A stretch of DNA of 64,000 bases from a bacterium HR11. GTDB taxonomy: Bacteria > Acidobacteriota > HRBIN11. A program made the position numbers and the translations under genes. The DNA is taken from contig BEHN01000011.1 in the NCBI GenBank assembly GCA_002898535.1, positions 1 through 64,000 of the forward strand, read 5' to 3'. Each line of letters starts with the position of its first letter. Positions within the stretch are counted from its first letter, which is position 1. Below the pieces are notes generated by a model. The model saw only the letters and a program-made list of their open reading frames with translations. It was not told the DNA's origin and did not search any database. This document shows, piece after piece, positions 24,436-61,421 of this stretch.

Positions 24436-24664
24436 AGGGGGAGTATGTCAAGTAGGTAGGTCGGCAGATAGGCAGGTGGGCAGATGGGCAGGTGGGCAGG
24501 TCGGCAGATAGGGCCACGGGACGGGAAAAGCCGTCACCGAGGCCCCAAGCCCCTCGGGATCCCGTATCTCGCATCTCGTATCCCGTATCCTTGAAAAATC
24601 GTGCTTCCCGGGCGACGGGAAAAGTCGATCGGACACCATTCTCCCGAACCGAACGGCTCTGTTA
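24436..24664. repeat. Composite hairpin-array element E1, partial (microsatellite and right module only)
   Basis: A GGCAGGTCGGCAGAT-type microsatellite at about 24448-24512 is followed by cgtatctcgcatctcgtatc-type sequence and then the right module (cttgaaaaatcgtgcttccc to the terminal ccgaacggctctgtta, ending at 24664). The terminal TTA is shared with the left end of E2, so the two abut. I see no left module or hairpins. Confidence 0.6.
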
Positions 24665-25210
24665 TCAGAGCGGTTCGGTTGGGAGAAATGCGGCTCCCAT
24701 CAGGGGAAAACGGTGGCCCGGCGATCTCGATTGTTCAAGCTTGTTAAGGCTGACACCGCCATGACTGGCGGTGTTCGGAGGGGCTGACACCGCCATGACT
24801 GGCGGTGTTGGGAGGGGATATGACACCGCCATGACTGGCGGTGTTCGGAGGGGATGACGCCGCCATCACTGGCGGTGTTTGGAGGGGATTGACACCGCCA
24901 TGACGGGCGGTGTTCAGAGGGGATCGACCCGGCCAGGACGGGCGGTGCATGAGGAGGACACCCGCAGGACGGCGGGCTCTCTACGGAAGGCACCGGCATG
25001 ACGGCCGGTGTCCCGAGGATAGGCACCAGTCGCCCGACCTGTCGACTGCCCATCTGCCGACCTGCCGACCTGCCCATCTGCCCATCTGCCAAATGCCTAT
25101 CTGCCGACTGCCGACCTGCCCATCGGCCGAATGCTTGAAAAATCGTCTTTCCCGGAGGGTCGGAAAAGTTGAATTTATGAGGCTTTTCACGGACCGAACC
25201 GCTCTGATAA
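24662..25210 (+). mobile_element. Composite hairpin-array element E2 (MITE-like, 549 bp)
   Basis: The ends are perfect 17-bp inverted repeats: ttatcagagcggttcgg at 24662-24678 and its complement at 25194-25210. Inside are a left module ending ttcaagcttgttaagg (to about 24749), then five hairpins of one type (acaccgcc, 6-nt loop, ggcggtgt; period about 33-36 nt), then three divergent hairpins (ccggcc, cccgc and ccggc types), the line agtcgcccgacc, a CCTGCCCATCTG-type microsatellite (about 25036-25130) and a right module starting gcttgaaaaatcgtctttcc. No open reading frame of substance is present, so if mobile it depends on a transposase elsewhere. Confidence 0.7.
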
Positions 25211-25482
25211 GTGAGGGATGGCCCCCCATAGGCGATAGACGCCAGCATGACGGCTGGCGTTGGGATCGATGGACAGAGGGGGTCAGGGGCAGGCCCGGTG
25301 CTTGCTCATCCGGGGGCAACCCGGGGGTTGTCCTTACTTGCATCCAGCATCCTGCGTTTTGTATCCTGCATGCCCGATGGGCGGGTTTGGAGACGCCCGC
25401 ATCACGGCGGGCGCTCGGGGTATTCTTTGGACGCCGCCATGACGGGCGGCGTTCCGAGAGATGCGACTACGAGCCATGACCC
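25211..25482. repeat. Isolated hairpin units and family A/I repeats upstream of the wzy-TPR gene
   Basis: Three hairpins of the same design as in the array elements: gacgccagc-atgacg-gctggcgt (about 25234), acgcccgc-atcacg-gcgggcg (about 25398) and gacgccgcc-atgacg-ggcggcgt (about 25430). A family I tract (catccagcatcctgcg, about 25340-25372) lies between, and family A (gagccatgacccatgagc) starts at about 25470. No gene is visible here. Confidence 0.65.
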
Positions 25483-28400
25483 ATGAGCTATGACCTCTTC
25501 ATGCGGTGGGGCCTCGTCGTCGGGCTCCTGGGGTTCACGATGTTCCGGTGGGGCGGGACGCTCCCGCCGGAGCGGCTCGTCTTGCACGTGGGGGCGGGCC
25601 TCCTCTTTCTGATGACGGTCCTCCTGCGGCCCTGGGGGCGCTTGCCGGAGACTCGCCTGCCGCTTCGGGCGTGGACCGGCTTGGTCGGATTCTTCGGACT
25701 CGTGCTTTTTACCCTTGCCCCCCTGCCGGCGGGCGTCCTCCGGGTCGTGGCTCCCGAGACGGCCCGGGTCTGGGACCGGGCCCGACCCGAGGATTTCTCA
25801 CGCCTCCTTGACGACATTCCCCAGGGCGGAGCGGTTCGCGCGCTCCTCCCTTTGATGGGGTCTGACCGGCCCTGCCGTCCGATCTCGATCTGGCCCGAGG
25901 GGACGTGGCACGACCTGATGGACTGGACCGCCTGCGGGGCCGTCGCCTTCGCCGTCGCCTACGGCTGGCGGCGACGGACCCTCATCGGCTGGACCTTCGG
26001 GGCCGTCATCGTCCTGGCCGTATTTCAGGCCCTGTACGGGCTTTTTGGCTACTGGACGGGCCATCTGCCGTGGCCGGCCGCCGAGCGGGCGACCGTCGAC
26101 CGGGCGTCGGGGTCGTTTTACAACGCAAACCACTACGTGGACTTCCTGGGGTTGAGCCTGCCGGTCGCCATCGCCGTATGGCTCGGCTGGTGGGGGGAGC
26201 TTCGGCGTCGGCTTCCCCGGAACTTCTGGGGGCGTGTGCGGGTGGTCCTGAACACGGCGGGCGGTCTCTTTCCCGTCCTGACGCTGGGGATTCTGGCCAT
26301 CCTGTTGGGGATCGGCTTTTCCCGGTCCCGGGGCGGCATCAGTGCGACGCTTCTCGTCCTGGCGGGGATGCTCCTGGGAGGGTCGCTCCGGCGGTCGAAC
26401 CGTCGGGAAGCGGTGGCCCCCGGGTCTCGGCCGGGTGGTCGTCGTCGGTGGGTCCGGCCCCTCGTCGTCCTGCTCCTTCTCGGTCTGGTCCTCTTCCTGT
26501 GGGTCGGGCCCCGACCGATCCTCGAGCGGCTCGCCCTGATCCCGCAGGAGCTGGAACTCGAGCCGGGCCGTCGTCTAAGCGCATGGCGGGACACGCTCCG
26601 GCTCATCGGGCGGTTTCCGGTCTGGGGGACGGGCCTGGGGACCTTCGGTGAGGCCTTCTATACGGTCCAGTCGTTTTACTCCGGCGGCCGGTGGAACGCC
26701 GCCCACAACGAGCTTCTCCAGTGGGTCAGCGACACCGGCCTCCTCGGCCTGGCGGCCCTGGGCGTGTGGCTCGGGGCCCTCGTGCGGTGGTTCCGGCGGA
26801 CGCCCCTCGAGAGCGGCACGCTGGGCCTCTGGTCGTGGGGCTGTCGGATGGGCCTGACGTACTTTGGCCTCGACAGTCTCGTCGACCTCAACCTGCGGAT
26901 TCCGACGAACGTCCTGCTGGCGATGGTCCTCCTGGGTCTGATGGTCGCCATGCGGCATGTGGACATGAGCCGGGGCTTGGCGACCCGGCGGTTCGAGAGT
27001 TCGGCGCTTTGGCCGGAAGAAGGGGAGGGAGGGGCCTCACGCCCGGCTCCTCTCCGGCGAGGCGAGGGGGGCGGGGTCCTCTCCCCTGACATCTCTCCCC
27101 CGGAGCGAGGATGGGCCTGGCTTCGGGCGGTCCTGGCCGGCGGGGTCGGGGTCGTCCTGGCCGGGGCCTTCATCGTGCAGTCGGTCCGGCTGTACGCCGT
27201 CGAGCGGGTCGAGGAGGACCTCTACCGGGCCGTGCGGCAGGGGACGGCGGCCTCGGCGGCGGCCCTCGGACAAGCCCGGGCGCTTCTCGCCGCCGGGCGG
27301 GGGACGTCCCGGCTGTACCAGTATCTGGGCATATTGGAGACGCCGACGGACCCGTCCGTCGAGAACACGGCCCCGGCGGTCGCCGCCTACGTGATGGCGG
27401 CCGTGGCGAATCCTCAGGACTACGTGAGTCGTCGGAACCTGGCCGATCTCCTGTGGCGGACGGGCGCGCCGTCCCGGTGGCCCGAGCGGTTCTGGCGGGA
27501 CGCCCTGGCCATCATTCCTTCAGAGGCGCCCCTCTGGTACGAACTGGGCCTCTTCTACTGGGTCTGGGGCCGCATCGACGAGGCCCTCGAAGCCTTCCAG
27601 ACGGCCGTCCGCTGGGACCCGGGCCTGGCCCGGCGGGTGTACGGCCACCTCATCCGTCTGGGTCGGCCCGAACTTCTCGAGAGGGTCACGCCGCCGGACC
27701 TCCGGCCGGAGCTGGCGGAATTCCTGGTCGGCCGGGGCTTTCCGGAGGCGGCCCGGTCGGTCCTGCAGGCCGTCCTGGACGAGGGCCATGGGGACGTCAT
27801 CCGACGGGCCCTGCCGCTGGCGGCGACCCATCCCGAGATGGGCCTCCTGGAGGCATTCCTCGAGCGTTTGCGGGACCGCCGGGACCGGGACCCCGACCTG
27901 ATTTACTGGGACCTCGTCGGGCGCATCCGGGCCGGCCGGTGGGAGGACCTGGAGGCCGTCATCCAGGAGGCCCTCCGGGTCGCCGACCGGACATACGGCC
28001 GGAGCGACCGGGCCGGACTCGACTACCGGGGTCGGCTGGCCCAACTTTTGGCCGGGGCCGGTCTCCGGGGGACGGCCCAGACGATCTACATGGAGGCCCT
28101 GGCCCAGGACTCGGCGTACGGCCCGGCCTATCAAGGCCTGGGTCGACTGGCCCTTCAGGACGGACGTCTGGAGGAGGCCTTCAGGTGGCTCCGACAGGCG
28201 CCCGAGGACGACGCCACCCGGACGGCCCTCTTCCAAGTCGGCATGCGGGCCTTCGAGGCCGGACAGGTGAGCTTGGCCGAGCAGGTCTTCGAATTCATGC
28301 GGGACCGGTGGGCCTACCGGGTAGACGGCTATCGGGGGCTGGCGGCCTTATATGAAAGGGGTGGGCGTTGGGCGGAGGCGCTCGAGGCGGCCCGGCGGGC

Positions 28401-28644
28401 GTGGGAAGCCCGGCCGGACGACACGACCCTGGCCCTTCAGGTCGCCCGCCTGGAGTATCGGGTCGGCGACCGTCTGCGGGCCGTGCAGGCGTGGGAGCAA
28501 GTCCTCGAGCGGGACCCCCGTTCGGCCGAAGCGTACGGGGGCCTCGTCGAGTACTACCGTTCGCAGGGCCTGGCGACTGTGGCCGACGACCTGTGCCGTC
28601 GAGCGCGGGCCCACGGCGTGCAGGTTCAGGCGTGTGGGGCGTGA
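25483..28644 (+). CDS. Large Wzy/O-antigen-ligase-like membrane protein fused to a TPR region
   Basis: A 1053-residue protein. Residues 1 to about 490 are a polytopic membrane domain of Wzy_C type, with RASGSFYNANHYVDFLGLSLP, SRSRGGISATLLVLAG and GTGLGTFGEAFYT..WNAAHNELLQWVSDTGLLGL, the last being the family's H/NxxLxxxxxxG signature. A Pro/Gly-rich insert at about 510-545 looks like translated repeat DNA. Another membrane helix follows (about 550-568), then about 480 residues of TPR-like helices (LWYELGLFYWVWGRIDEALEAFQTAVRWDP). It may polymerise or ligate a glycan with TPR-mediated partner binding. The ATG lies in repeat family A; ATG 25501 (MRWGLVVGLLGF) is an alternative start. Confidence 0.85.
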   Translation: MSYDLFMRWGLVVGLLGFTMFRWGGTLPPERLVLHVGAGLLFLMTVLLRPWGRLPETRLPLRAWTGLVGFFGLVLFTLAPLPAGVLRVVAPETARVWDRARPEDFSRLLDDIPQGGAVRALLPLMGSDRPCRPISIWPEGTWHDLMDWTACGAVAFAVAYGWRRRTLIGWTFGAVIVLAVFQALYGLFGYWTGHLPWPAAERATVDRASGSFYNANHYVDFLGLSLPVAIAVWLGWWGELRRRLPRNFWGRVRVVLNTAGGLFPVLTLGILAILLGIGFSRSRGGISATLLVLAGMLLGGSLRRSNRREAVAPGSRPGGRRRWVRPLVVLLLLGLVLFLWVGPRPILERLALIPQELELEPGRRLSAWRDTLRLIGRFPVWGTGLGTFGEAFYTVQSFYSGGRWNAAHNELLQWVSDTGLLGLAALGVWLGALVRWFRRTPLESGTLGLWSWGCRMGLTYFGLDSLVDLNLRIPTNVLLAMVLLGLMVAMRHVDMSRGLATRRFESSALWPEEGEGGASRPAPLRRGEGGGVLSPDISPPERGWAWLRAVLAGGVGVVLAGAFIVQSVRLYAVERVEEDLYRAVRQGTAASAAALGQARALLAAGRGTSRLYQYLGILETPTDPSVENTAPAVAAYVMAAVANPQDYVSRRNLADLLWRTGAPSRWPERFWRDALAIIPSEAPLWYELGLFYWVWGRIDEALEAFQTAVRWDPGLARRVYGHLIRLGRPELLERVTPPDLRPELAEFLVGRGFPEAARSVLQAVLDEGHGDVIRRALPLAATHPEMGLLEAFLERLRDRRDRDPDLIYWDLVGRIRAGRWEDLEAVIQEALRVADRTYGRSDRAGLDYRGRLAQLLAGAGLRGTAQTIYMEALAQDSAYGPAYQGLGRLALQDGRLEEAFRWLRQAPEDDATRTALFQVGMRAFEAGQVSLAEQVFEFMRDRWAYRVDGYRGLAALYERGGRWAEALEAARRAWEARPDDTTLALQVARLEYRVGDRLRAVQAWEQVLERDPRSAEAYGGLVEYYRSQGLATVADDLCRRARAHGVQVQACGA

Positions 28645-29061
28645 CGGTCTCATGTGGCATCGCTGGGAGCGTCGGCATCCTTGCCGGCGGATGGGCAGTC
28701 GGCATGTGGGCAGGTCGGTCGATGGGTAGGTCGGTAGGTAGGATACGTGGGAGATTGGGTGTCGGGAGCAGGATGCAAGATGCAAACCTGACGTGTGTTT
28801 TCAGGCATTCACCGCCGAGACGCAGAGGACGCCGAGGGATGGAATCCCAGCCCCGCTCGCCTGAGAGCGGGGTCACGAGAGAGACCACCGATCACGGACC
28901 ATTCGCCATTCCAAAGGGCGGAACACCAGGACGTATTTCAAAATCCCCATTTTACCGCTGAAACGCCGGGAACGCAGAGAAAAATCGAAGGAAACCCTTC
29001 GTCCTCTGCGTCCTCGGTGCCTCGGCGGTGAGTTTTGAAACCGGCTTTAGGAGGGTGAAGT
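28645..29061. repeat. Repeat-filled gap upstream of the Uma2 gene
   Basis: Contains a GGCAG-type microsatellite (about 28684-28745), family I (gcaagatgcaaac), a family B arm (28803-28840), a family G palindrome (28851-28873) and a complete family B palindrome at 28944-29041, with arms starting tttcaaaatccccattttac and ending ggcggtgagttttgaaa. No gene is seen. Confidence 0.75.
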
Positions 29062-29661
29062 ATGAAGGGGAGTTTGCGCAAGGGCCGAGCCAAGATGGCA
29101 CCGGTGGCGGAGCTGTTCCCGTCTCAGGGGGAGTGGGGCGAGGAGGACTACTTCTCCCTGCCCGACACCCATCGCTATGTGGAGCTCTCCGAGGGGAGGT
29201 TGATCGTGCCGCCCCATCCGACGTATAGCCATCAAAACGCTTTGAAGCGTTTGTTCGTACGATTGAATGCCTTCGTCGAGGAGCATCAGCTCGGAGTCGT
29301 CCAATTGGCCCCCTTGCCGGTGCGGCTGTGGCCTGGCAAGATCCGGGAGCCGGACATCTTCTTCATCGCGAAGGAACACGTCGACCGCATCGGCGAGCAA
29401 GTCTGCGGTGTGCCCGACCTCGTCGTGGAGGTCACCTCGCCCTCGACGCTGAAGGCGGACCGGATGGAGAAGTTTCACGAGTACGCTCGGGCCGGGGTGC
29501 GCGAGTACTGGCTGGTCGACCCCCAAGCGCATACGATCGAGGTCTACACGTTGCAACAAGGGGCCTACCTGCTACGGGGGAAGTGGGGGGCGGGCGAGAG
29601 GGCCTCTTCCGAGTTATTGTCAGGCTTCACAGTCCGGGTGGACGAGATTGTGGGCGGGTAG
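29062..29661 (+). CDS. Uma2-family protein (DUF820, PD-(D/E)XK fold)
   Basis: A 199-residue protein with the standard Uma2 layout: ELSEGRLIVPPHPTYSHQNALKRLF, then KIREPDIFFIAKE with the active-site Asp (about 98), then PDLVVEVTSPSTLKADRMEKFHEYARAGVREYWLVDP with Glu (about 123) and Lys. The family is annotated as putative restriction-endonuclease-like and is widespread in cyanobacteria, Chloroflexota and others; its cellular role is unknown. The ATG at 29062 has AGGAGGGTGAAGT upstream. It directly follows a family B palindrome, like the GxxExxY gene. Confidence 0.88.
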   Translation: MKGSLRKGRAKMAPVAELFPSQGEWGEEDYFSLPDTHRYVELSEGRLIVPPHPTYSHQNALKRLFVRLNAFVEEHQLGVVQLAPLPVRLWPGKIREPDIFFIAKEHVDRIGEQVCGVPDLVVEVTSPSTLKADRMEKFHEYARAGVREYWLVDPQAHTIEVYTLQQGAYLLRGKWGAGERASSELLSGFTVRVDEIVGG

Positions 29662-29689
29662 GATGGGGGCGGGGAATGGAGTCCGTACC

Positions 29690-29964
29690 TAACATAGCCG
29701 TTCGGCCTGAGAGAATGGCATCGGGACGGTTTTGGGATGACGGACGCCGGTGCCAAGAGGTGAAAGTTGGCCTTTTCCATTGCCCGAGGAGCACGATTTT
29801 TCAGAGGGACGGAGCGACGAAGTGACGGGGTGACAAAGTCGGAATGATTCCGAGCTGTCCACCTGTCCATCTGCCCATCTGCCGAATGCTTCAAAAGTCG
29901 TCTTTCTCGAAGAATCGGAAAAGTCGGGTCCATCCGGATTTTCCCGAACTGAACGGCTCTGCCA
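29690..29964 (+). mobile_element. Composite element E3, short or decayed copy
   Basis: The left end taacatagccgttcgg (29690-29705) and right end gaacggctctgcca (to about 29964) match the ends of E2, E4 and E8. Between are one degenerate hairpin (atgacggacgccggtgcc), a partial second right module (gcacgatttttcagaggg), family H units (gacgaagtgacggggtgac), a short GTCCACCTGTCC microsatellite and a right module gcttcaaaagtcgtctttct. No ORF. It ends about 20 bp before the tRNA. Confidence 0.55.
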
Positions 29965-29984
29965 ATCAACGTTCCGTCGACACG

Positions 29985-30069
29985 GCCGGGGTGGTGGAAC
30001 GGTAGACACTGGGGACTTAAAATCCCCTGGGCGGCGACGCCCGTGCGGGTTCGAGTCCCGCCCCCGGCA
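29985..30069 (+). tRNA. tRNA-Leu (anticodon TAA)
   Basis: An 85-nt cloverleaf: acceptor stem GCCGGGG/CCCCGGC, D-stem GTG/CAC, anticodon stem GGGGA/TCCCC with loop CTTAAAA (anticodon TAA), a long variable arm GGGCG-GCGA-CGCCC as expected for class II tRNA-Leu, and T-arm GCGGG-TTCGAGT-CCCGC. The discriminator is A and the CCA end is not encoded. It lies between composite elements E3 and E4. Confidence 0.95.
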
Positions 30070-30076
30070 CCCCTAT

Positions 30077-30534
30077 GATAGCAGAGCCGTTCGGTTGGGA
30101 GAAATGCTGTTCCCATCCGGGAAAACGGTGGCCCGGCGATCTCGATTTTTCAAGCTTGTTAAGGCTGACACCGCCATGACGGGCGGTGTTCAGAGGGGAT
30201 TGACACCGCCATGACTGGCGGTGTTGGGAGGGGATTGACACCGCCATCACTGGCGGTGTTCAGAGGGGATCGACCCGGCCAGGACGGGCGGTGCATGAGG
30301 AGGACGCCCGCAGGACGGCGGGCTCTCTACGGAAGCCACCGGTATGACGGCCGGTGTCCCGAGGATAGACGCCCGTCGCCCGACCGGCCCATCGGCCGAC
30401 CTGCCGACTACCCATCTGCCCATCTGCCAACTGCCCATCTGCCCATCTGCCAAATGCTTGAAACATCGCGCTTCCATGGAGGTGCCCTTTCCGCTCTCCA
30501 TCTCACTTCTCACCGCCCGAACGGCTTTGTTATC
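30077..30534 (+). mobile_element. Composite hairpin-array element E4 (458 bp)
   Basis: Terminal inverted repeats gatagcagagccgttcgg (30077-30094) and its near-complement (30517-30534) match at 16 of 18 positions. The left module runs to about 30163 (caagcttgttaagg), followed by three acaccgcc/ggcggtgt hairpins, then the same three divergent hairpins and gtcgcccgacc line as in E2, a microsatellite (about 30386-30455) and the right module (gcttgaaacatcgcgcttcc). The left end begins eight bases after the tRNA-Leu 3' end. Confidence 0.7.
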
Positions 30535-30572
30535 GTAAATACTGACGCCAGCATGACCGAGGAGGCCCGACC

Positions 30573-31739
30573 ATGAAGGACTACTACGCCATCCTGGGTG
30601 TGCCGCGAAACGCCACGGAAGAGGAAATCAAGAAGGCCTACCGCCGACTGGCCCTCCAGTACCACCCGGACCGGAATCCCGGCGATAAGGAAGCCGAGGA
30701 GAAATTCAAGGAGATCACCGAGGCCTACTCTGTCCTGATCGACAAGGAGAAGCGGGCCATCTACGACCGTTACGGCGTCGAGGGCCTTCGTCAGCACGTC
30801 GGCGGCGACCCCGGTCGGTACTGGAATCCCGAGATCTTCCGGGACTTCGAGGACATCTTCCGCTGGTTCATGAACGGCGGATGGGAGCGCATCTTCCACT
30901 TCGGCTGGCCCTGGGCCTGGGAATCTACCTGGGCCGGCCGCCCGAGCGACGCCGTCCCCGGCGAAGACCTGCAGTATACGCTGGAAATCAGTTTGGAAGA
31001 CGCTTATCGCGGCAAGACGGTCTCCCTGAAAGTCCCGAAGCGGGTCGTCTGTTTGCACTGTCGGGGCACGGGGACCGAGGGCCGCTATCGGGACCAGGCG
31101 TGTCCCGTCTGCCAGGGCACGGGTATGATTCAGTCCCAACGGGGCTTTCTCTTCATCCGTCAGACCTGCTCTCGGTGTGGGGGCCGCGGTCGGGTCCTCG
31201 CCAATCCGTGTCCCCACTGCCACGGTGAGGGTCGCGTGGCCGACACTCAGACCGTCGAGGTCCACATCCCGCCGGGCGTGGACACCGGCATGCAGGTCCG
31301 CTTGCGGGGCGAGGGCGATGCGGGCATCCGCGGGGGTCCGCCCGGGGACTTATACATCCTCATCAAGGTCCAGGAGCACCCCGTTTTCCGACGCCAGGGC
31401 GACGACCTGTACGTCGAACAGCCGATCAGCGTCTTTCAGGCTCTCGTCGGGGACGAGGTCGAGATCCCGACCCTGGACGGTTCGAAGGAGACGCTCCGTA
31501 TCGAGCCCGGCACCCAGCCCGGTACGATCATCAAGGTACCCGGCCGGGGCATGCCCCGGGTCCAGGGGAGCGGCCACGGGGACCTGTACGTCCAGGTGAA
31601 GGTCGTCGTCCCCGCCCAGATCGATGAGGAAGACCGGGCCGTCCTGGAGAAGATGGCCCGCAAGTACCACCCCGACATTGCGCCCCAGCAGAGACGGATG
31701 TTCCGCCGGATGCGGGACTTCTTCGGGGGGAGCCACTGA
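30573..31739 (+). CDS. dnaJ: Chaperone DnaJ
   Basis: The 388-residue co-chaperone of DnaK stimulates its ATPase and delivers unfolded proteins. It has a J domain at 1-66 with HPD at 31-33, a linker rich in Trp/Phe instead of the usual Gly/Phe, a zinc-finger domain with all four CxxCxGxG-type motifs (Cys 160/163, 177/180, 199/202, 213/216) and C-terminal peptide-binding domains from about 225. The start follows GAGGAGGCCCGACC. No dnaK or grpE is adjacent. The C-terminal extension ([21 protein letters not shown]) is a little unusual, echoing an HPD-like motif. Confidence 0.95.
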
Positions 31740-31784
31740 AGACGGGTGTTGGGTAGTGGGTGGGGGAGGTCGGATACAGGCGAA

Positions 31785-31945
31785 CGGCGAGTGGCGAGTG
31801 GCGAGTAGCGAATGGCGAATAGCGAGTAGCGAGTGGCGAATGGCGAAGGGCGAAGGGTGAATGGTCTGCGGTCTGCGGTCTGTGGTCGGCGGTCGATTGT
31901 CCCGCGACCCCGCTCGGGCGAGCGGGACTAGAATTCCATCCCGTG
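31785..31945. repeat. Composite repeat C-D-G, copy 1 (upstream of the short coiled-coil gene)
   Basis: Family C units (gcgagtagcgaatggcgaat) at 31785-31860 run into family D (tggtctgcggtctgtggtc) and then a 33-bp block ggtcggcggtcgattgtccc... ending in a family G palindrome and gaattccatcc. The 33-bp block is repeated exactly at about 32456-32488. Confidence 0.8.
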
Positions 31946-31967
31946 ATTCGATGCGAAGGAGGAGGTC

Positions 31968-32264
31968 ATGGCCGTCACGCTGGAGGAACGGGTCGCCTAC
32001 CTGGAGGGCCGGGTCGAGGAGCAGTCCCGCCTGGGGACGGAACTCCGGGAGATGGTCGCCCACCTGGACCAGAAGGTGGACCGATTCCGGGAGGAATTGA
32101 TGGCTCAAATCCGGGCCGTCGACCAGAAGGTCGACCGGTTTCGGGAGGAGCTGTCGGCTCAGGTCCAGGCCCTGGACCAGAAGATGACCCGCTACTTCAC
32201 CTGGCTGATAGGCCTGTACATCGCCGGCCTGCTGGCCATCATGGCGGCCCTGCTGGGACGGTGA
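31968..32264 (+). CDS. Short coiled-coil protein with C-terminal membrane anchor
   Basis: The 98-residue protein starts after a strong AAGGAGGAGG site. Residues 1-35 (LEERVAYLEGRVEEQSRLG) are coiled coil, followed by two 18-residue repeats (xxDQKVDRFREELxAQxx), a partial third (ALDQKMTRYF) and a membrane helix (WLIGLYIAGLLAIMAALL). It is the short paralogue of the gene at 47725-48411, with identical N-terminal and anchor segments but far fewer repeats. The layout recalls Bdr/DUF1640-type proteins, but I cannot assign a family with certainty. The gene is bracketed by direct copies of a composite repeat. Confidence 0.75.
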   Translation: MAVTLEERVAYLEGRVEEQSRLGTELREMVAHLDQKVDRFREELMAQIRAVDQKVDRFREELSAQVQALDQKMTRYFTWLIGLYIAGLLAIMAALLGR

Positions 32265-32350
32265 AACCCTTCGTGACGGCGTTCGATCTGGGCCCTTCCG
32301 ACCGGGCGACGGCTTCTCTTCGACCCCTGTCACGCTATTATGCCGCCGTG

Positions 32351-32520
32351 TTAGAACGGCGAATGGCGAACAGCGAATGGCGGAGGGCGAATAGCGAGTG
32401 GCGAATAGCGAATGGCGAGTGGCGAGTAGCGAATGGCGAATGGTCTGCGGTTGATGGTCGGCGGTCGATTGTCCCGCGACCCCGCTCGCCCAAGCGGGGC
32501 CGGAATTCCCATCCTGCATC
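32351..32520. repeat. Composite repeat C-D-G, copy 2 (downstream of the short coiled-coil gene)
   Basis: Family C units at 32351-32440, family D, then the same 33-bp block (ggtcggcggtcgattgtccc...) and family G palindrome (cccgctcgcccaagcgggg), ending gaattcccatcctgcatc (family I). The rest of the gap 32265-32626 holds nothing recognisable. Confidence 0.8.
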
Positions 32521-39929: not shown

Positions 39930-40056
39930 CATAGCTGATAGCTCATGGCCTATGAGCCATGAGCCGATGTCAGCCATGAGTCAGTAAGAGCGCTACCGGG
40001 CTTATTGGCCCATCTGCCGACCCTTGCATCCTTCATCTTGCATCCTGTATCCTACT
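39930..40056. repeat. Family A and family I repeats upstream of the M28 peptidase
   Basis: Family A (tgatagctcatggcctatga...) at about 39930-39990 and family I (ttgcatccttcatcttgcat) at about 40022-40056. Between 39821 and 39930 I see only a short family H piece (cctgacggcgtgacggg). Confidence 0.7.
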
Positions 40057-48610: not shown

Positions 48611-48616
48611 CACTCC

Positions 48617-52863: not shown

Positions 52864-54141
52864 ATGGAAAAGAAGTTTACGTTGGCGTTTCTCTTGGTCG
52901 CCGGTATCAGCTACCTGGTATTCGACCTGTTCGTATCCCGCTTTCTCAGGAACACGTTACCGCAGGTCGAAGGCGCCGGTCCCCTGTATGTGACCCTGGC
53001 GTCCCTGTTTCCGGCCTTTGTCATCGTCTTCCTGGCGGCCGGCCTGGGATGGCTGTCGGCCCGTTTCTGGCTCCTGCCCCCGATCCAGGACCTGGCCCGG
53101 GCGACCCTGCAGGTCCGGAGCGGCGACCTGCGGGTGCAAATCGACCCCCGGACCCGTGACGAGGTCGGCCAGGTCGTGGATTCCTTTAATCAGATGGTCG
53201 TGGAGCTCCGTCGGCTGATTCAGGAAATCCACCATACCAGTGACCAGCTCCACGGGATGGCCGTCCACCTCCGGGCGGCCTCCCAGGAAGTCAGCACCAG
53301 CGCTCAGGAGATCGCCAACACGATGCAGGACGTCGCCCGGGGGGCAGAAGTCCAGGCCCAGCGAATTCAGCAGGTCCAAGGCCTCCTTCAGCAGTTAGAG
53401 CACCAGACCCGACAGATCGCCGACCTGTCCCAGATGACGTGCGCCACGGCCGAGGCTTCCGTCCAGGCCGCCCGGGACGGGATCGACCTCATCGGCCAGC
53501 TCCTCCAGCGCGTATCGGCGACCCGGGAGAGCATCCACGCGGCGTCCCGCCACGTCCACGGATTCGGTCAACGGGCGCTGTCCATCACGGACGCCGTCAA
53601 GCGGATTCAGTACATCGCCCAGCAGACAAACCTCTTGGCCCTCAACGCCACCATCGAGGCGGCCCGGGCCGGCGAGCAGGGGCGGGGCTTCGCCGTCGTC
53701 GCCGAAGAAATCCGAAAATTGGCCGACTCGACCCGCCAGCTGGCTGACGAGGTCAGCGTCTTGGCCGATGAGATTCAGCATCAGAGCCAGTCGGTGTATC
53801 AGGTCATGGAAGAGAGCGTACGGCATTCCGACGAGAGCCAGACCGGTCTCCAGTCCAGCCTGAGCCGCTTCGAACAGATCGTCCAGGCCTCCCAGCAGAC
53901 GTACCGACAGGCGACGCAGGTCGTCGATATGACGAACCAGCAGTTGAGGAGCGTTCAGGATATCCTGCATCATATCGGCGAAATTAATCACGTGGCCGAG
54001 AACAATGCGGCGGCCGCCGAGGAGGTGTCGGCGGCGACGGAAGAACAGTCGGCGGCGACCGAAGAGCACCTGCGGTCGGCCGAGGACATGGCCGCCATCG
54101 CCCAGCGCCTGAAGGAGGCCGTCCAGAAGTTTGCCGTGTGA
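52864..54141 (+). CDS. mcp: Methyl-accepting chemotaxis protein
   Basis: The 425-residue receptor has two membrane helices (about 6-27 and 42-67) with only a very short periplasmic loop, so it probably senses an internal or membrane signal. A HAMP region follows (about 68-122), then a cytoplasmic signalling domain whose tip (about 251-276) contains [36 protein letters not shown], the binding site of CheA and CheW. The end ([22 protein letters not shown]) has possible methylation sites for CheR. The ATG follows GGGAGGTCAGGA. Confidence 0.94.
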
Positions 54142-54382
54142 GATGCGGGAATTCGGCGGTTCGGGGACTCGGGCATGGGGGAGCCAGCCGTCGGCGACAA
54201 GAGAAGGCGAAGAGCCAAGAAAACTTCAGGGGCGACGCGGGGGCGGGGAACGCTATACGCCCCTCTGCCTTCTACGTCGGCCGCCGAGCGGCCCTCCCGA
54301 ACGGCCCCTCTGCCGAACTGCCGAATTCCCGAGCTCCCGAATGGCCGGATTCCCGAATTCCCGAGCTCCCGGACGGCCCGTC
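54142..54382. repeat. Family F repeats around the block shared with 47530-47640
   Basis: Family F (gcgggaattcggcggttcgg) at 54143-54175, a GC-rich block containing tctacgtcggccgccgagcg (inverted relative to 47530-47640), then family F in reverse (gccgaattcccgagctcccg) at 54312-54378. The latter runs right up to the cheW start and leaves no ribosome binding site. Confidence 0.7.
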
Positions 54383-54862
54383 ATGGACGTGTACCTCGTG
54401 TTTGCCGCCGGCATCGGAGAGGGCGGTGCGCCCCAGTACTGGGCCGTCCCGGCCGCCCAGGTGCGGGAGGTCCTCCAGACGCCACCCGTCTACCCGATCC
54501 CTCGGGTCCCGCCCTTCATCGCCGGGAGCCTGTGGCACCGGGGGCGGGTCCTGACGGTCGTCGATATGGCCCAGGTCTTGGGCGGCCGGCGATGGCAACC
54601 GAATGAGAATCTGATATACTATGTCATCGTCCTGGAGGACGTCCGCATGCCGGTCGCCCTCTGGGTCGGGCCGTGGGTCCAGGCCGTCCGGGAAAGCGAG
54701 ATGACCCCCGTCGGGACTGGCCACGTGGCGATCCCTCTGATGGAACGGGCCACCCAGTGGGTGGAGGGCCGGGTCGTCTTCCATCTGGACGTGCCGGCCT
54801 TCCTGAACTGGCTGGACCGGGCCGTCGTCGCCTTCAGTCGGACCCTGGCCGACTACCGGTGA
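54383..54862 (+). CDS. cheW: CheW-like coupling protein
   Basis: I place the start at ATG 54383 (MDVYLVFAAGIGEG). The 159-residue protein matches the CheW beta-barrel order: YWAVPAAQVREVLQTPPVYPIPRVPPFIAGSLWHRGRVLTVVDMAQVLGG, with the conserved 'R-G-x-x-xP-V/T-V-D' strand, then YYVIVLEDVRMPVALWVGPWVQAVR and a C-terminal helix. It would bridge receptor and CheA. It lacks a recognisable ribosome binding site because family F DNA precedes it, so translation may be weak or coupled. Confidence 0.88.
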   Translation: MDVYLVFAAGIGEGGAPQYWAVPAAQVREVLQTPPVYPIPRVPPFIAGSLWHRGRVLTVVDMAQVLGGRRWQPNENLIYYVIVLEDVRMPVALWVGPWVQAVRESEMTPVGTGHVAIPLMERATQWVEGRVVFHLDVPAFLNWLDRAVVAFSRTLADYR

Positions 54863-54902
54863 GCCCGTCGGGGACCTCGGACGCCTTTGGAGCGAGGGGC
54901 TT

Positions 54903-55292
54903 ATGAAAGTACGGGTCATGGTCGTCGATGATGCGATGTTTATGCGGAATATGCTCAAGGAAATCCTGAACAACACGGGCCGCTACGAGGTCGTCGCCGA
55001 GGCCGCCAACGGCCAGGAGGCCCTCGAACTCTACAAACAGGTCCGACCCGACCTGGTCACGATGGACATCGTCATGCCCGTCATGGACGGCATCGAGGCG
55101 ACCCGGGAGATCCTCCGCTTCGACCCCCAGGCCCGGATCGTCATGTGTAGCGCGCTCGGTCAAGAACCCCTCGTCATCGAGTCCATCGCCGCCGGCGCCC
55201 GGGACTTCATCGTCAAGCCCTTCGCCCCCGAGAAGGTCATCCGCGTGTTAGACCAGGTCATGCAGACGGCCCCGGCCGGGCAGACGACGTAG
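54903..55292 (+). CDS. cheY: CheY response regulator
   Basis: A 129-residue stand-alone receiver domain. Acidic pocket Asp9/Asp10, phosphorylation site Asp55 (LVTMDIVMPVMDG), switch Ser83 (MCSALGQ) and Lys105 (FIVKPF) are all present. In B. subtilis-type systems CheY-P is dephosphorylated by CheC, and a CheC-like gene follows. Its target in this organism could be a pilus motor rather than a flagellar switch, since no flagellar gene is in the window. The start follows GGAGCGAGGGGCTT. Confidence 0.95.
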   Translation: MKVRVMVVDDAMFMRNMLKEILNNTGRYEVVAEAANGQEALELYKQVRPDLVTMDIVMPVMDGIEATREILRFDPQARIVMCSALGQEPLVIESIAAGARDFIVKPFAPEKVIRVLDQVMQTAPAGQTT

Positions 55293-55509
55293 GGCCGATC
55301 CCGACCCGACGGGTCGATGAATCGGCGTAGGACCGAGGCCTGCGTCCTACCCTCGAACATGCCCATCGGGTCTGCATCCTGCATCTGGCATCCCGTATCG
55401 CATGGGACCCTGCTCCGACGAGCGGGGCTGGGATGAAGAGGGCCTATCGGCCCATCGGCCGACCGGCCGAACTCCCGGACTGCCGAACTCCCGAATGGCC
55501 GAGATACCC
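55293..55509. repeat. Family I, G and F repeats before cheA
   Basis: ctgcatcctgcatctggcat (55370-55400), gctccgacgagcggggctgg (about 55410-55432) and aactcccggactgccgaact (55470-55505). The last tract abuts the cheA start, which again lacks a ribosome binding site. Confidence 0.65.
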
Positions 55510-57444
55510 ATGAGCCTCGACTTTGAAAAGTACTTCCGCATGTTCCTGGAGGAGACGGGGGAGTACTTGCGGGAGATGTATGAGACGGTCCGACGGCTGG
55601 CCGAAGCGCCGACGGCCGAGGCCTGGTCCGAACTCTTCCGACGGGCCCATTCCATTAAGGGCATGGCGGCTTCCTTAGGTCTCGGGGCCGTCCAGCAGTT
55701 GGCCCATGCGATGGAGGACTTCCTGACGTGGGTCCAGCGCCGGCCGGACGCTCCGGCGCGGCTCGGCCTTCTGGCCGAGGGCCTGGAGTGCCTGGAGGGT
55801 CTCCTGCGGAAGCCGCCGTCAGAGCTTCAGGCGCCGGACGCCGCCGTCCAGGCCGTCGTCGAACGCCTGCGGGCTGGCCCGACGGGAGCTCCAGGCGTCG
55901 GTTCGGGCGACGGGTCCGCCGGCGCGCCGGCGACGCTGTCTGGACCGAGTCCAGCCCTATCTGTTTCGACGGACGCGGCGGCGGTCGACCGGGTCCGATG
56001 GGAAGGTCACGTCACGCTGGTGGAAGGGGCCCTCTTGCCGGCCGCCCGGTGGGCCGTCGTCCTGCGGGCGCTCCAGCGGCTGGGCTCGCTGGTCGAGAGC
56101 CGACCGGCGGCGGACGAAATCGCCCAGGGGAAGGTCGGCCGGCATCTGAGCTTCGTCATAGAGTCCGACGCCGATGCGACAGCCATCGAGGCGGCCTTGC
56201 GGCAGGTTCCGGACGTCGAGACGGTCGAGGTCCGACGCCGGGCGTCGGAGGTTCCCGTCGAGACGACGTCGTCCGACGTCCTGCCGGCGACGATCCGGGT
56301 TCGTCTTTCAGAGGTCGACCGGCTGTTCGACCTGGCGCGGGCGGTCTTCATGCAGGTCCAGCGCCTGCGGGGTTCGCTCTCGGTCGTGTCTCTCGAAGAC
56401 GAGGCCCTCCTGCGGGATACCGAGACCCTGGCCCGTCAGCTTTATTTAGGCCTCTTGGACCTGCGGATGCTCCCCCTGGAGGTCCTCATCGAGCCCCTCC
56501 GTCGGATGGCCGAGGCTCTGGCCCGTCAGATGGGCAAGCGGGTCCGTCTGGTCACCCGGGGCGAGGACCTGACGCTCGACAAGGCCGTCCTTGAGCATTT
56601 GATGGACCCCTTCATCCACATGGTCCGCAACAGCGTCGATCACGGGATCGAGCCGCCGGCCGAACGCCGGGCGAAGGGCAAGCCCGAGGAGGGCTACATC
56701 AGCATCCATGCCCAACAGCGGGGCGAGTGGATGCAGGTCGTCGTCCTGGACGACGGCCGGGGGATGGACGTCGAGCGCATCGCCCAGACGGCCCTGGAGC
56801 GGGGGATCGTCACGCCGGACCAGCTCCGTCGGATGAGTGTCGAGGAGGTCTGCATGCTGGTGACGATCCCGGGCTTCAGCACGGCCGAGGCCGTCACGGA
56901 AGTGTCGGGCCGGGGCGTCGGCATGGACGTCGTGCGCCATCGGGTCGAGGCCCTCGGCGGGACGCTCCGCATCGAGACCCGCCGGGACCGGGGCACGCGG
57001 ATCACCCTGCGGATTCCGGCCCGGCTCTCGATCCTGGACACCCTCATCGTCGGCCACGGTCGATACCGGCTGGCCATCCCGATGGACCGGGTCCGCCGGG
57101 CGACGCCCTATCTGCGGGAGGCCATCCACTACCGCCAGGAGGTGCCCGTCTTGTACCAGGACGGCTTCATCGCACCCGTCCTGTTCATGGACCAGGTCCT
57201 CGGCGAGGGGACGGGCCAGCCGCGGCATCGGTACTACATGCTGACGATTCAGTACGAGAAGGGCCTCTACGTCCTGGCCGTCGCCGACATTCAGGGCGAG
57301 CACCGGAGCGTCGTGCAACGGCTCGAGCCGCCCCTCAGCCGGATTCCCCTCTTTTCGGGGATCACCGTGAGCCCGGCCCTGGAGGTCATCCCCCTCCTGG
57401 ACGTCGAATTCATCGGTCAGCATCTGACGCCCCAGGTGACGTAA
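55510..57444 (+). CDS. cheA: Chemotaxis histidine kinase CheA
   Basis: I choose ATG 55510 (MSLDFEKYFRMFLEETG); the frame back to 55402 reads repeats. The 644-residue kinase has an HPt domain with His47 in RRAHSIKGMAASLG, a Pro/Gly/Ala linker (about 125-160), a P2-like ferredoxin-fold region (about 165-245) and a dimerisation helix pair. The ATPase has N box HMVRNSVDHGIEPP (about 371-384), G1 DDGRGMD (about 413) and G2 GRGVGMDVV (about 467), and a CheW-like domain (about 510-640) ends the protein. It autophosphorylates in response to the receptor and passes the phosphate to CheY. Expected family length and all key residues are present. Confidence 0.95.
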   Translation: MSLDFEKYFRMFLEETGEYLREMYETVRRLAEAPTAEAWSELFRRAHSIKGMAASLGLGAVQQLAHAMEDFLTWVQRRPDAPARLGLLAEGLECLEGLLRKPPSELQAPDAAVQAVVERLRAGPTGAPGVGSGDGSAGAPATLSGPSPALSVSTDAAAVDRVRWEGHVTLVEGALLPAARWAVVLRALQRLGSLVESRPAADEIAQGKVGRHLSFVIESDADATAIEAALRQVPDVETVEVRRRASEVPVETTSSDVLPATIRVRLSEVDRLFDLARAVFMQVQRLRGSLSVVSLEDEALLRDTETLARQLYLGLLDLRMLPLEVLIEPLRRMAEALARQMGKRVRLVTRGEDLTLDKAVLEHLMDPFIHMVRNSVDHGIEPPAERRAKGKPEEGYISIHAQQRGEWMQVVVLDDGRGMDVERIAQTALERGIVTPDQLRRMSVEEVCMLVTIPGFSTAEAVTEVSGRGVGMDVVRHRVEALGGTLRIETRRDRGTRITLRIPARLSILDTLIVGHGRYRLAIPMDRVRRATPYLREAIHYRQEVPVLYQDGFIAPVLFMDQVLGEGTGQPRHRYYMLTIQYEKGLYVLAVADIQGEHRSVVQRLEPPLSRIPLFSGITVSPALEVIPLLDVEFIGQHLTPQVT

Positions 57445-57454
57445 CGGGTCGGGC

Positions 57455-57734
57455 CGGTCGGCAGATGGGCAGGTGGGCAGGTGGGCAGTCGGCAGGTCGG
57501 CAGGTGGGCATTTGGCAGGTGGGCAGGTGGGCAGTCGGCAGGTCGGCAGGTGGGCATTTGGCAGGTGGGCAGGTGGGATCCCATCTGAACACCGCCAGTC
57601 ATGGCGGTGTCATCCCCTTTGAACACCGCCAGGGATGGCGGTGTCATCCTTAACAAGCTTGAACAATCGAGGTCGCCGGGCCATCGCTTTCCCGGATGGG
57701 AACCGCATTTCTCCCAACCGAACAGCTCTGATAA
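57455..57734 (-). mobile_element. Composite hairpin-array element E5, reverse orientation
   Basis: Read on the minus strand: left end ttatcagagctgttcgg (57718-57734), left module to caagcttgttaagg (about 57652), two acaccgcc/ggcggtgt hairpins (loops atccct and atgact), then directly a long CCTGCCAAATGCCC-type microsatellite reaching to about 57456. The divergent distal hairpins and the right module are absent. It begins within about ten bases of the cheA stop. From 57735 to 57841 there is a family A tract (57752-57800) and nothing else recognised. Confidence 0.65.
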
Positions 57735-57841
57735 GGAAGGAGGCCCAGCCGTCGTGGCTCATGACCTATGACCTATGAGCTATGAGCCATGACCCATGAG
57801 CTAATTCGCCGACCTGTCTGACGGATTGTCGGACGACCGTC

Positions 57842-58435
57842 ATGGATCGGGGGTATTCGCCGGACGTACTCCAGGACCTCGTTCCCTTTTGGCTCCAGCA
57901 GTCGGTCGGAGCCCTGGCTCAGCTCGTCGGTCGGCCCCTGCGGTGGCAAGTCGATCATAGCCGTCGGGTAGCCGTCCCGACCGACTTCGCCGGAAGCGCT
58001 GAGCAGGTCGTCGTATACGTGCAGGAACACGAGTCCGACTTCCGCCTCTGGGCGGTCGGATGGCCGGTGCCGACGGCCGTTCAGCTCCTCCGATGGCTTC
58101 GGGTGTCGGACGACGGGCCCCCGTCCGCATCGGCGGCCGGTTCCCTTGCGTGGGTCCTGGACCGGCCGGCGCGGGTCTCGGCCCTCCTGGAGGCCGGCAA
58201 CGTCATGGCCGGTACGTTCTTCACGGCCGTGGCCGGCTTCATGAACCGGGTCCTGATCCCGTCGCCGCCGGACCTGTTCGTCGGTGACGCGGCCACTTGT
58301 CAGACCTATCTGCGGGACCTCGTCGTCCCGGGGGCGGGGACATGGTTCACGATGACGGGGCGACTCGTCGGCGAGGGCCTGGAGCTCCCCCAGTGGATGG
58401 CCGTCTTCATCACAGGTAGGGAGGTAGGGAGATAG
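57842..58435 (+). CDS. cheC: CheC-like CheY-P phosphatase
   Basis: A 197-residue protein. The segment SALLEAGNVMAGTFFTAVAGFMNRVLIPSPPDL matches the CheC signature (E-x-G-N-I..A..N-A-L..P-S-x-P). Only one such E-x2-N motif is clear; an N-terminal partner motif (DLVPFWLQQSVGALAQLVG) is weak, so it may resemble the single-site CheX/CheC class III form. CheC dephosphorylates CheY-P and is stimulated by CheD, which is encoded next. The last residues (REVGR) come from the microsatellite of element E6. Confidence 0.78.
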   Translation: MDRGYSPDVLQDLVPFWLQQSVGALAQLVGRPLRWQVDHSRRVAVPTDFAGSAEQVVVYVQEHESDFRLWAVGWPVPTAVQLLRWLRVSDDGPPSASAAGSLAWVLDRPARVSALLEAGNVMAGTFFTAVAGFMNRVLIPSPPDLFVGDAATCQTYLRDLVVPGAGTWFTMTGRLVGEGLELPQWMAVFITGREVGR

Positions 58436-58757
58436 GGAGATGGGCAGGTCGGCAGATAGGCAGTCGGCAGATGGATAGATAGGCGGGTCGGCGTCTATCC
58501 TCGAAACACTGGCAGTCATGCCGGTGTCCCCCTGTCCTGGCGCCGCCCGTCATGGCGGCGTCCATCCATCCCAACACCGCCCGTCATGGCGGTGTCATCC
58601 TCATGGAACTGGGAGTTATCCCGGTGTCAACCTCAGGGGCAGGTCGGCAGATGGGCAGGTGGCTGAGAATCCCGTATCTTTGAAAAATCGTGCTTCTCGG
58701 ACGTTGGGAAAGGTCGTCCTGATGCCATCCCCACGAACCGAAGGGCTCCACTCAGAC
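58436..58757. mobile_element. Composite element E6, rearranged copy between cheC and cheD
   Basis: GGCAG-type microsatellite (58415-58495), then reverse hairpins acactggc-agtcat-gccggtgt, cgccgccc-gtcat-ggcggcg, acaccgccc-gtcat-ggcggtg and ctggg-agttat-cccggtg (58503-58630), a second short microsatellite, then the right module in forward sense (tttgaaaaatcgtgcttctc) with a degenerate end cgaaccgaagggctc at about 58733-58748. There is no left module. The right end lies about ten bases from the cheD start codon. Confidence 0.6.
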
Positions 58758-59243
58758 ATGGCCGTCGGACGTCACGTCGGCATCGGTCAGTTTGCCGTCG
58801 CCCGGGCGCCGGACTACCTGACGGTCCTGGGCCTCGGTTCCTGCATCGGCCTGTTTGTATGGTCCGACCGCTGGCAGGTCGGGGGCCTCGCCCACATCCT
58901 GTTGCCCTCGGGGCCCTACAGTCAGGACCACATGCCGTGCCGGTATGCCGATACAGCCGTGGACGTCTTGCTGGAGGCGCTTCGACAGGCCGTCGGCTCG
59001 GCCCCCGGCGTTCGCTGGCAGGCCAAGCTCATCGGCGGGGCGACGATGTTCCACCACATCACCCACCCGGCCCTGCGCTCGATCAGCCAGCGCACGGCCG
59101 AAGCCGTCCGGGCGGGTCTCCGACGATACCACGTCCGGGTCGTCGCCGAGGACCTGGGCGGGTTCCACGGGCGTTCCGTCTGGGCCTATCCGGCGACGGG
59201 TGCCGTCCGGGTCCGGACCCATCGGGGGGAGTACTGGCTGTGA
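58758..59243 (+). CDS. cheD: Chemoreceptor glutamine deamidase CheD
   Basis: I place the start at ATG 58758 (MAVGRHVGIGQFAVAR); the open frame upstream is element E6. The 161-residue protein has YLTVLGLGSCIGLFVW with catalytic Cys29, GGLAHILLP with His46, RYADTAVDVLLEAL and AKLIGGATMF, all typical of CheD. It deamidates receptor glutamines and activates CheC. Length is normal. The element's right end takes the place of the expected ribosome binding site. Confidence 0.93.
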   Translation: MAVGRHVGIGQFAVARAPDYLTVLGLGSCIGLFVWSDRWQVGGLAHILLPSGPYSQDHMPCRYADTAVDVLLEALRQAVGSAPGVRWQAKLIGGATMFHHITHPALRSISQRTAEAVRAGLRRYHVRVVAEDLGGFHGRSVWAYPATGAVRVRTHRGEYWL

Positions 59244-59663
59244 GGGTTCGGGCATTCGGCAGGTTGGCAGATAGGCAGTTCGGCAGATAGGCAGGTGGGC
59301 AGTCGGCAGATAGGCAGATGGGCAGTCGGCAGTTCGGCAGGTGGGCCGATGGGCCGGTCGGGCGACGGGCGTCGATCCCCGGCACGCCGGCCTTCATGCC
59401 GGTGCCTTCCTTAGAGAGCCAGCCGTCCTGCGGGCATCATCCTCATGAACCGTCCGTCATGGCCGGGTCAATCCCCTCCGAACACCGCCAGCCATGGCGG
59501 TGTCCATCCCATCTGAACACCGCCCGTCATGGCGGTGTCCATCCCATCTGAACACCGCCAGGGATGGCGGTGTCATCCTTAACAAAGCTTGAACAATCGA
59601 GATCGCTGGACCACCGTTTTCCCTGATGGGAGCACCGTTTCTCCCAATCGAACGGCTCTGTTA
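59244..59663 (-). mobile_element. Composite hairpin-array element E7, reverse orientation
   Basis: Read on the minus strand: end taacagagccgttcgattgg (about 59644-59663), left module to caagctttgttaagg (about 59578), three acaccgcc/ggcggtgt hairpins (loops atccct, atgacg, atggct), the divergent ccggcc, cccgc and ccggc hairpins, the gtcgcccgacc line and a long microsatellite (about 59255-59355). The right module is missing; the element ends at the cheD stop codon. Family F (aattcccggattcccgaact) fills 59715-59750. Confidence 0.65.
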
Positions 59664-59757
59664 CCTTACTACTTCCCGACCTGCCGACCTGCCCATCTGC
59701 CTATCTGCCGACTGCCCATCTGCCGAATTCCCGGATTCCCGAACTGCCGGATCTCTT

Positions 59758-61074
59758 TTACGCGTGGGCCAGGCCCCGGGTCGAGAGGTACAGGTACAGG
59801 GCCGACAGGAGGCCGATGAGGACCAACGTCGGCGACAGGCGCTCCCACCGCCGGAGGAGCAGGACGAGGGCCAGGTACGACAGGATCCCGAAGCACAACC
59901 CCGTGGCGATGCTGTACGTCAGGGGCATCAAGATGATCGTCAGAAACGCCGGGGCCCCCTCGTCCCACCGGGTAAAGTCGATCTCCCGGATATGCTGGAT
60001 CATGTAAATCCCCACGACGACCAGGGCGACGGCCGTCGCATAGGACGGAATGACGGCGATGAGGCCCGAAAAGAAGGGCGCCGTCAGGAAGAACAGGCCC
60101 GTAAACAGGGCCGTCCAACCCGTCCGGCCGCCCGCCGCCACGCCGGCGCCCGACTCGATGTAGGCCGTCACCGTCGAAGTCCCCAGGACGGCCCCCGCCG
60201 TGGCGCCGACCGCATCGGCCATCAGCATCCGGCCCAGGCGGGGAATCTCGCCGTCCCGGGCCAATCCGGCCTGGTAGGCGATCCCCGTCAGCGTCCCGAG
60301 GCCGTCAAAGAGTGCGACATACATGAAGGCAAAGATGGGGAGCCAGTGGACCGGCTGGAGGGCGTCCCGGACGTTCAGCTTCAAGAATACCGGCTCGACG
60401 GAAGGCGGCCGCGTGACCCAGGCCGCCGGCCGTTCGACCCAACCGGCGGCGATGGCGACGAATGTGATGGCCAAAATGACGATCAGAAGGCTTCCCCGGA
60501 CCCGCAGGGCCTCCAGTGCAAAGGCCACGACGAGGCCCGCCAGGGCCAAACCCAGTTCCTTCCGCAAAGGCCCGAACGTTACGAGCGTCGCCGGATGGTC
60601 GACGATGAGCTTCATGTGCTGAAGACCGATGAAGGCGATGAAGAGGCCGATGCCGGCCGGAATCGCCAGCCGCAGGGACAGGGGAATCGCCCGCAGGATC
60701 GCCTCCCGCAGGCCGCCGACCGTGAGGCCGATAAACAGAACGCCGGCCAGAAATACGATCCCCAGGGCCGTCGGCCAGGGGACCTTGTGAATGCCGCAGA
60801 TGGTAAAGGCAAAGAAAGCGTTCAAGCCCATCCCGGGCGCCATCATGATGGGGACTTTCGGCCAGAGAGCCATCAGGAAGCACCCCAGGGCGCTGGCGTA
60901 GCAGGTCACGGCGATGAGGGCATGGCGGTCCATGCCCGTCGTGCTGAGGATGTCGGGGTTGACGGCGATGATGTAGCCGGCCGTCAGGAAGTTCGCCAAG
61001 CCGGCGATGAATTCCCGCCCCATCGACCAGTCCCGGACTTCCGGGGGGACCAACCACTGTCGCCACCGGGCCAT
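59758..61074 (-). CDS. Purine permease, AzgA/PbuG-like (NCS2 superfamily)
   Basis: I place the start at ATG 61074 (MARWRQWLVPPEVRDW), preceded by AAGGAGGTGGGTC; the frame to 61395 is element E8 in reverse. The 438-residue protein has twelve to fourteen membrane spans and the AzgA signatures GREFIAGLANFLTAGYIIAVNPDIL, APGMGLNAFFAFTICG, ALFDGLGTLTGIAYQAGL and GTSTVTAYIESGAGVAAGGRTG. Members import guanine, hypoxanthine or adenine with protons. The substrate is not resolved by eye. Confidence 0.9.
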   Translation of the reverse strand: MARWRQWLVPPEVRDWSMGREFIAGLANFLTAGYIIAVNPDILSTTGMDRHALIAVTCYASALGCFLMALWPKVPIMMAPGMGLNAFFAFTICGIHKVPWPTALGIVFLAGVLFIGLTVGGLREAILRAIPLSLRLAIPAGIGLFIAFIGLQHMKLIVDHPATLVTFGPLRKELGLALAGLVVAFALEALRVRGSLLIVILAITFVAIAAGWVERPAAWVTRPPSVEPVFLKLNVRDALQPVHWLPIFAFMYVALFDGLGTLTGIAYQAGLARDGEIPRLGRMLMADAVGATAGAVLGTSTVTAYIESGAGVAAGGRTGWTALFTGLFFLTAPFFSGLIAVIPSYATAVALVVVGIYMIQHIREIDFTRWDEGAPAFLTIILMPLTYSIATGLCFGILSYLALVLLLRRWERLSPTLVLIGLLSALYLYLSTRGLAHA

Positions 61075-61086
61075 GACCCACCTCCT

Positions 61087-61421
61087 TAACAGAGCCGTTC
61101 GGTTGGGAGAAATGCGGCTCCCATCCGGGAAAACGATGGCCCGGCCATCTCGATTTTTCAAGCTTCCTCCGGATGACCCGGCCATGACGGACGGTTCATG
61201 AGGATGATGCCCGCAGGACGGCGGGCTCTTTACGGAAGCCACCGGCATGACGGCCGGTGTTCCGGGGATAGACGCCCGTCGCCCGACCGGCCCATCTGCC
61301 CACCTGCCGACCTGCCCATCTGCCCACCTGCCCATCTGCCGACTGCCTGAAACATCGTGCTTTCGTAGAGGTGCCCTTTCCACTCTCCATCGCACTTCTC
61401 ACCTCCCGAGTGGCTCTGTTA
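61087..61421 (+). mobile_element. Composite hairpin-array element E8 (335 bp)
   Basis: Ends taacagagccgttcgg (61087-61102) and ccgagtggctctgtta (61406-61421) are inverted repeats matching at 14 of 16 positions, the outer ten perfectly. Order inside: left module to about 61170, no acaccgcc hairpin, the divergent series (ccggcc-atgacg, gcccgc-aggacg-gcgggc, caccggc-atgacg-gccggtg), the gtcgcccgacc line, a microsatellite (about 61290-61345) and the right module tgcctgaaacatcgtgcttt. It lies between the ribosome binding site of the permease and the stop codon of the next gene. Confidence 0.75.

Follow-up and report, generated by a model that had tools for sequence, protein, structure and literature searches.

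The question raised by this locus is what kind of element lies behind several composite repeats found in a 64,000-nucleotide stretch of the bacterium HR11 genome (contig BEHN01000011.1, positions 1 to 64,000; hereafter the window), in which inverted termini enclose a variable array of hairpins, and whether this array grows directionally, as an array with a leader does. Here we present evidence that the dispersed composite is very probably a family of non-autonomous DNA transposons (MITEs), the explanation that best accounts for it as a whole. The observation on which the original prediction was based holds and its CRISPR-like reading does not; the earlier interpretation as a whole is partly supported.

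Results

Ends, target site and copy number

The terminal 13-mer CAGAGCNGTTCGG, with one mismatch allowed, has 568 matches in the 2.99-Mb genome versus 27 for the reversed pattern, that is, about 540 element ends above background, and a strict gapped pattern combining the terminus with the inner box has 128 matches versus 0 in the control, which bears out the dispersed composite with inverted termini first described from the window. Moreover, the 549-bp window copy has at least 41 blast-level relatives across the genome. A profile of the 76-bp end, derived from 77 seeds, located 255 end modules in 804 kb, a density biased upwards because the sequence stretches were picked around known copies, and these formed 94 convergent pairs with an inverted terminal repeat of 13-14 bp (CAGAGCNGTTCGG) at both ends. 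In 46 of the 94 pairs the two flanking 4-mers match exactly (mean 8.9 and maximum 19 in 2000 shuffles), indicating a target duplication with the consensus NTAN, the central TA being present at approximately 88-93% per base; in the sister species G001, the duplications GTAA/GTAA, ATAG/ATAG and CTAA/CTAA were recognized by eye. Given this flank consensus, intact elements run from CAGAGC to GCTCTG. The terminal inverted repeats of 16-18 bp proposed originally are therefore real as inverted ends but take in the target: in the copy at 24662, 14 bp of the 17-18-bp repeat belong to the element, the rest being the flanking TTAT/ATAA.

The elements are mostly 196-542 bp long and have no transposase gene inside, and their ends number in the hundreds. 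Pairwise full-length identity reaches 97.7%, and the median distance to consensus is 3.5% for b-c copies and 7% for a-d copies (end types are described below).

All copies listed in the original prediction are real, with positions right to within a few bases (Table 1); the true limits, which exclude the NTAN target, are 24666-25206, 30082-30529 and 61090-61418 for the three intact hairpin copies, and the copies given as 57455-57734 and 59244-59663 are indeed reversed and lack the right end. Among those called partial or rearranged, the copies at 24436 (a lone end) and 58436 (a decayed end) fit that description, and the one at 29690 turned out to be a complete b-c element. It counts against the MITE explanation that the flanking repeats of the three intact hairpin copies are all imperfect (TTAT/ATAA, ATAG/TTAT and TTAA/TTAG). 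The copy at 24666, an a-c hybrid that has no matching duplication and abuts another end, may be a recombinant or nested product. An Rfam search of the window returned one tRNA and one SAM riboswitch (RF00162, 39703-39822, minus strand) and nothing else, and intergenic repeats of a degenerate, word-like kind (for example CTATGAGCCATGACC and CATCCTGCATCTTG) were seen at window positions 57750-57800 and 39941-39964 and elsewhere.

Table 1. Elements and element parts in the window, and members of a second inverted-repeat family elsewhere in the genome
Feature	Position	Strand	Remarks
Microsatellite and lone b-type end	24436-24661		originally listed as a partial copy
Lone b-type end module	24583-24661	-	matches right module; abuts MITE at 24666, TTAT shared
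MITE, ends a and c, 541 bp, five variable hairpin units	24666-25206	+	
Left a-type end module, terminal CAGAGCGGTTCGG, inner box CGATTGTTCAAGC	24666-24750	+	part of MITE 24666-25206
Variable hairpin minisatellite, five units of 34-36 bp	24753-24925	+	part of MITE 24666-25206
Fixed distal core, three more hairpins, one decayed	24926-25030	+	part of MITE 24666-25206
Microsatellite, CTGCCCAT/GGCAG-type	25034-25128	+	part of MITE 24666-25206
Right c-type end module	25131-25206	-	part of MITE 24666-25206
Complete b and c element, hairpin-free, other main subtype	29693-29961	+	flanks CTAA/CCAA; absent in G001
MITE, ends a and d, three variable units	30082-30529	+	between tRNA-Leu and dnaJ; absent in sister species
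a-type end, two variable units and microsatellite, no right end	57455-57730	-	between cheA- and cheC-like genes; absent in sister species
Hairpin cluster, then decayed b-type end	58484-58749	-	between cheC- and cheD-like genes
a-type end, three variable units, core and microsatellite, no right end	59244-59659	-	absent in sister species
MITE, ends a and d, zero variable units	61090-61418	+	flanks TTAA/TTAG; absent in sister species
Second inverted-repeat element with internal hairpins	L066:13780-14200; L037:10700-11120; L065:4700-5090; L078:7650-8100		apparent 7-bp flanking repeats

End types and distribution

There are four interchangeable end types of about 76 bp (a-d), whose main combinations are b-c, which is hairpin-free, and a-d, which bears hairpins. 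A somewhat larger set of 108 typed pairs comprises 50 b-c, 33 a-d, 10 a-b, 4 b-d, 3 a-c, 3 c-c, 2 b-b and 1 d-d pairs, with 2 unclear. Core hairpins are present in all 46 sampled a-ended pairs and in 0 of the others. Thus, of the two modules whose co-occurrence had been predicted, the left one goes together with the hairpins genome-wide, in all the elements sampled, but the right one is not exclusive and may be of type d, b or c. The right halves would have been exchanged between subtypes, with the inner box that they share or the GGCAG microsatellite as a plausible place of exchange.

A search of the genome and its relatives, as the original prediction had proposed, found the hundreds of ends described above and showed that, within the phylum sample, the family is restricted to its own genus: strict ends number 128 and 21 in two species of the genus and 0 in the other 394 genomes. 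The family was found neither in viral contigs nor in phage records, and the left module followed by the hairpin pattern had no match across the named genome collection. For DnaJ, a match of 49% to an Acidobacteriota MAG gave a tentative pointer to the phylum. Contigs from two sister species (G001 and G002) are syntenic with the window, and in G001 and/or G002 the orthologous gaps (tRNA-Leu/dnaJ and the chemotaxis genes) are without the copies at 29693, 30082, 57455, 59244 and 61090. Empty sites and target duplications, both of which the original prediction had proposed to look for, were thus found. At the 57455 site, both relatives carry a GGCAG microsatellite without the element, which indicates that part of the microsatellite there is not the element's own.

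Structure and variation of the hairpin array

Only one hairpin unit of 34-35 bp varies in number, and it is placed between the left end and a fixed core, giving the plan end module-(hairpin unit)n-end module with n from 0 to 5. Variable-unit counts, which take in copies beyond the convergent pairs, are 0 in 21 copies, 1 in 13, 2 in 12, 3 in 2, 4 in 4 and 5 in 3. The counts first read from the window (0, 3, 3, 5 and 2) were correct, as was the description of a distal part that stays constant and of near-identical hairpins that vary in number next to the left module. It is this variation solely on the left-module side that favours a directional array, one that would gain new units at the left module, as at a leader, and preserve old ones distally. 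We regard such an array as extremely improbable. The constant distal hairpins are present with or without variable units, and their occurrence in 21 copies having zero variable units identifies them as a fixed core and not as old units. Across the 21 arrays with at least two units, first units are no more alike than under shuffled order (p 0.33), and last units are more alike only with the boundary spacer counted (p 0.025; 0.76 for the hairpin alone), so the hairpins show no polarity and growth at the left-module edge is not borne out. Furthermore, clustering of unit number on a tree of the shared parts, which is poorly resolved, is not significant (14 changes versus 16.7 when shuffled; 46-50 of 500 as low), and the unique spacers of a CRISPR-like directional array were not found between the units. 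Units are about as similar within a copy (0.909) as between copies (0.913), and this, together with the lack of polarity, suggests that copies exchange units rather than gain them on the leader side.

It has also to be considered that the array is a BOX-like regulatory repeat, co-transcribed with neighbouring genes and tuning mRNA stability or termination, with its stems under selection. Within the variable unit, variation amounts to 0.6-0.9% at stem positions, 9% in spacers and 21% in loops, a contrast of uncertain size because the pattern used to find units is biased towards conserved stems and the parsing of six copies was imperfect. As the stem bases are about tenfold less variable than the spacers, and far less than the loops, a pure passenger role for the array is not proven. 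In the fixed core, stems vary by 3.6-4.2% versus 7.5% in the linker. One full copy folds far better than shuffled sequence (z -9.1), and there are elements between same-strand chemotaxis genes. However, we consider a regulatory repeat unlikely: the elements are intergenic with no enrichment at gene ends or terminator-like placement and no orientation bias with respect to genes (13 opposite, 11 same), half of the family (b-c) lacks such hairpins, the first core hairpin is decayed, and among 676 stem pairs of two core hairpins 50 one-sided changes (31 of them pair-breaking) stand against one compensating two-sided change. A mobilization of the hairpins as REP-type palindromes by a RAYT (Y1) transposase is very unlikely. 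It would agree with the occurrence of hairpin units outside the MITEs, since 15 of 16 hairpin clusters in the G001 stretches examined have no family end within 450 bp, a rough count because these stretches are short. However, it would apply to the free hairpins alone, a Y1 transposase was absent from the HR11 genome and represented by one weak match in G001, and a RAYT would not be expected to give rise to MITE ends with 4-bp duplications.

Hairpins similar to those of the MITE family also occur in the HR11 genome inside a second inverted-repeat family, TGGCTCTGTTGATATCC...GATGTCAACAGAGCCA, of which eight members were found, with 7-bp flanking repeats that are exact in two and near-exact in several. 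It is conceivable, though doubtful, that the array is an independent genus-specific repeat that two or more unrelated MITE families (with 4-bp and probably 7-bp duplications) have captured and that is advantageous to its carrier, for example by insulating neighbouring transcription, whence stems would be kept while loops drift.

Other repeats and insertions were encountered in these searches. Another type of tandem hairpin, GTAGGCGTCCCCGCCTGCGGGA, lies beside a hairpin cluster in G001 (L114:600-1000), and a CRISPR array of 16 repeats (GTTTCCATCCCCTTTGGGCGGGTCTCGGTTTTCAAAG) lies near an a-type element (L080, minus strand, 10815-12115). In G001, tRNA-Leu on one side and a second copy of its 3' half on the other flank a hicB-hicA-like pair (L104:5157-5851), which suggests a small tRNA-targeting integrative element that is absent from the window genome.

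Search for a transposase

Transposases of families PF01609 and PF13701 were absent from the three genomes of the genus, and PF13546 from the HR11 genome, which has a single PF00665 (integrase-core) transposase (L227, G000:C2:215921-216211) whose own ends, TTGCCTCAYGAAAAGATCTTGCC, are unrelated to the MITE family. With four DDE family models and about a third of the genome read directly, no autonomous partner with matching ends was found, and the transposase gene carrying the same termini that the original prediction had proposed to look for did not come to light; nor was an autonomous element present on the shortest contigs. Candidate autonomous elements, delimited by end pairs 1.2-1.5 kb apart, were rejected as they enclose host genes.

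Discussion

A DDE-type transposase acting in trans is the standard route to MITE-like elements. In the family described here, such a transposase would bind the ends of about 76 bp, which share the terminal CAGAGCCGTTCGG and the inner box CGATKTTTCAAGC, and would insert the element at NTAN through 4-bp staggered cuts that produce the observed duplication. The interior would be passenger DNA, in a-ended elements the fixed hairpin core plus a minisatellite of 0-5 copies of the 34-35-bp unit. The number and order of units may change by exchange between dispersed copies or by slippage, as would be expected where units of one copy are not homogeneous and arrays show no polarity, and the window copies probably inserted in the present lineage after its split from the sister species. 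The target duplication is YTAR, 4 bp, in IS5 (PMC10359306) and four bp in IS701 (PMC2266710), and the 4-bp NTAN duplication resembles either, though the HR11 genome has no PF01609 or PF13546 transposase.

The original prediction knew of no described family with this architecture, yet analogous ones exist, the closest precedents being the pneumococcal BOX elements and the Porphyromonas gingivalis MITE BrickBuilt. In BOX of Streptococcus pneumoniae and S. suis, boxA and boxC ends flank a variable tandem boxB, with MITE features and predicted stem-loops, and S. suis BOX has two kinds of end module with the same boxB (PMC3049150). In both BOX and BrickBuilt two end modules enclose a variable number of tandem units. 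Unlike in BOX, every variable unit here is a short hairpin by itself, the array is followed by a fixed hairpin core, and the ends of about 76 bp are of four interchangeable types with a 4-bp NTAN duplication; the comparison is one of architecture, and homology is not expected. BrickBuilt has a minisatellite between 'leader' and 'tail' subunits, inverted-repeat ends, an intergenic location and a limited host range (PMC4596501). However, its copies number 19 and its 23-bp units follow one another with no spacers, in contrast to the hundreds of ends, the 34-35-bp hairpin unit and the array-free sister subtype found here. Correia elements, BIMEs and other composite repeats are likewise dispersed, small and intergenic, with inverted ends or palindromic units; compared here from the literature, they differ in ends, target and interior (PMC3049150). 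What distinguishes the present family is the interchange of ends, the hairpin-free sister subtype, the fixed hairpin core, its scale, and the hairpins it has in common with a second element family.

The family thus represents a large burst of mini-transposons whose ends are exchangeable and whose hairpin cassette can be counted, confined to a single little-known genus, and it is a natural record of how mobile elements without a gene of their own capture, swap and lose cassettes. Should selection underlie the conservation of the stems, these transposons would exemplify the carriage of a structured insulator; if not, the family is a MITE expansion of the ordinary kind, well delimited.
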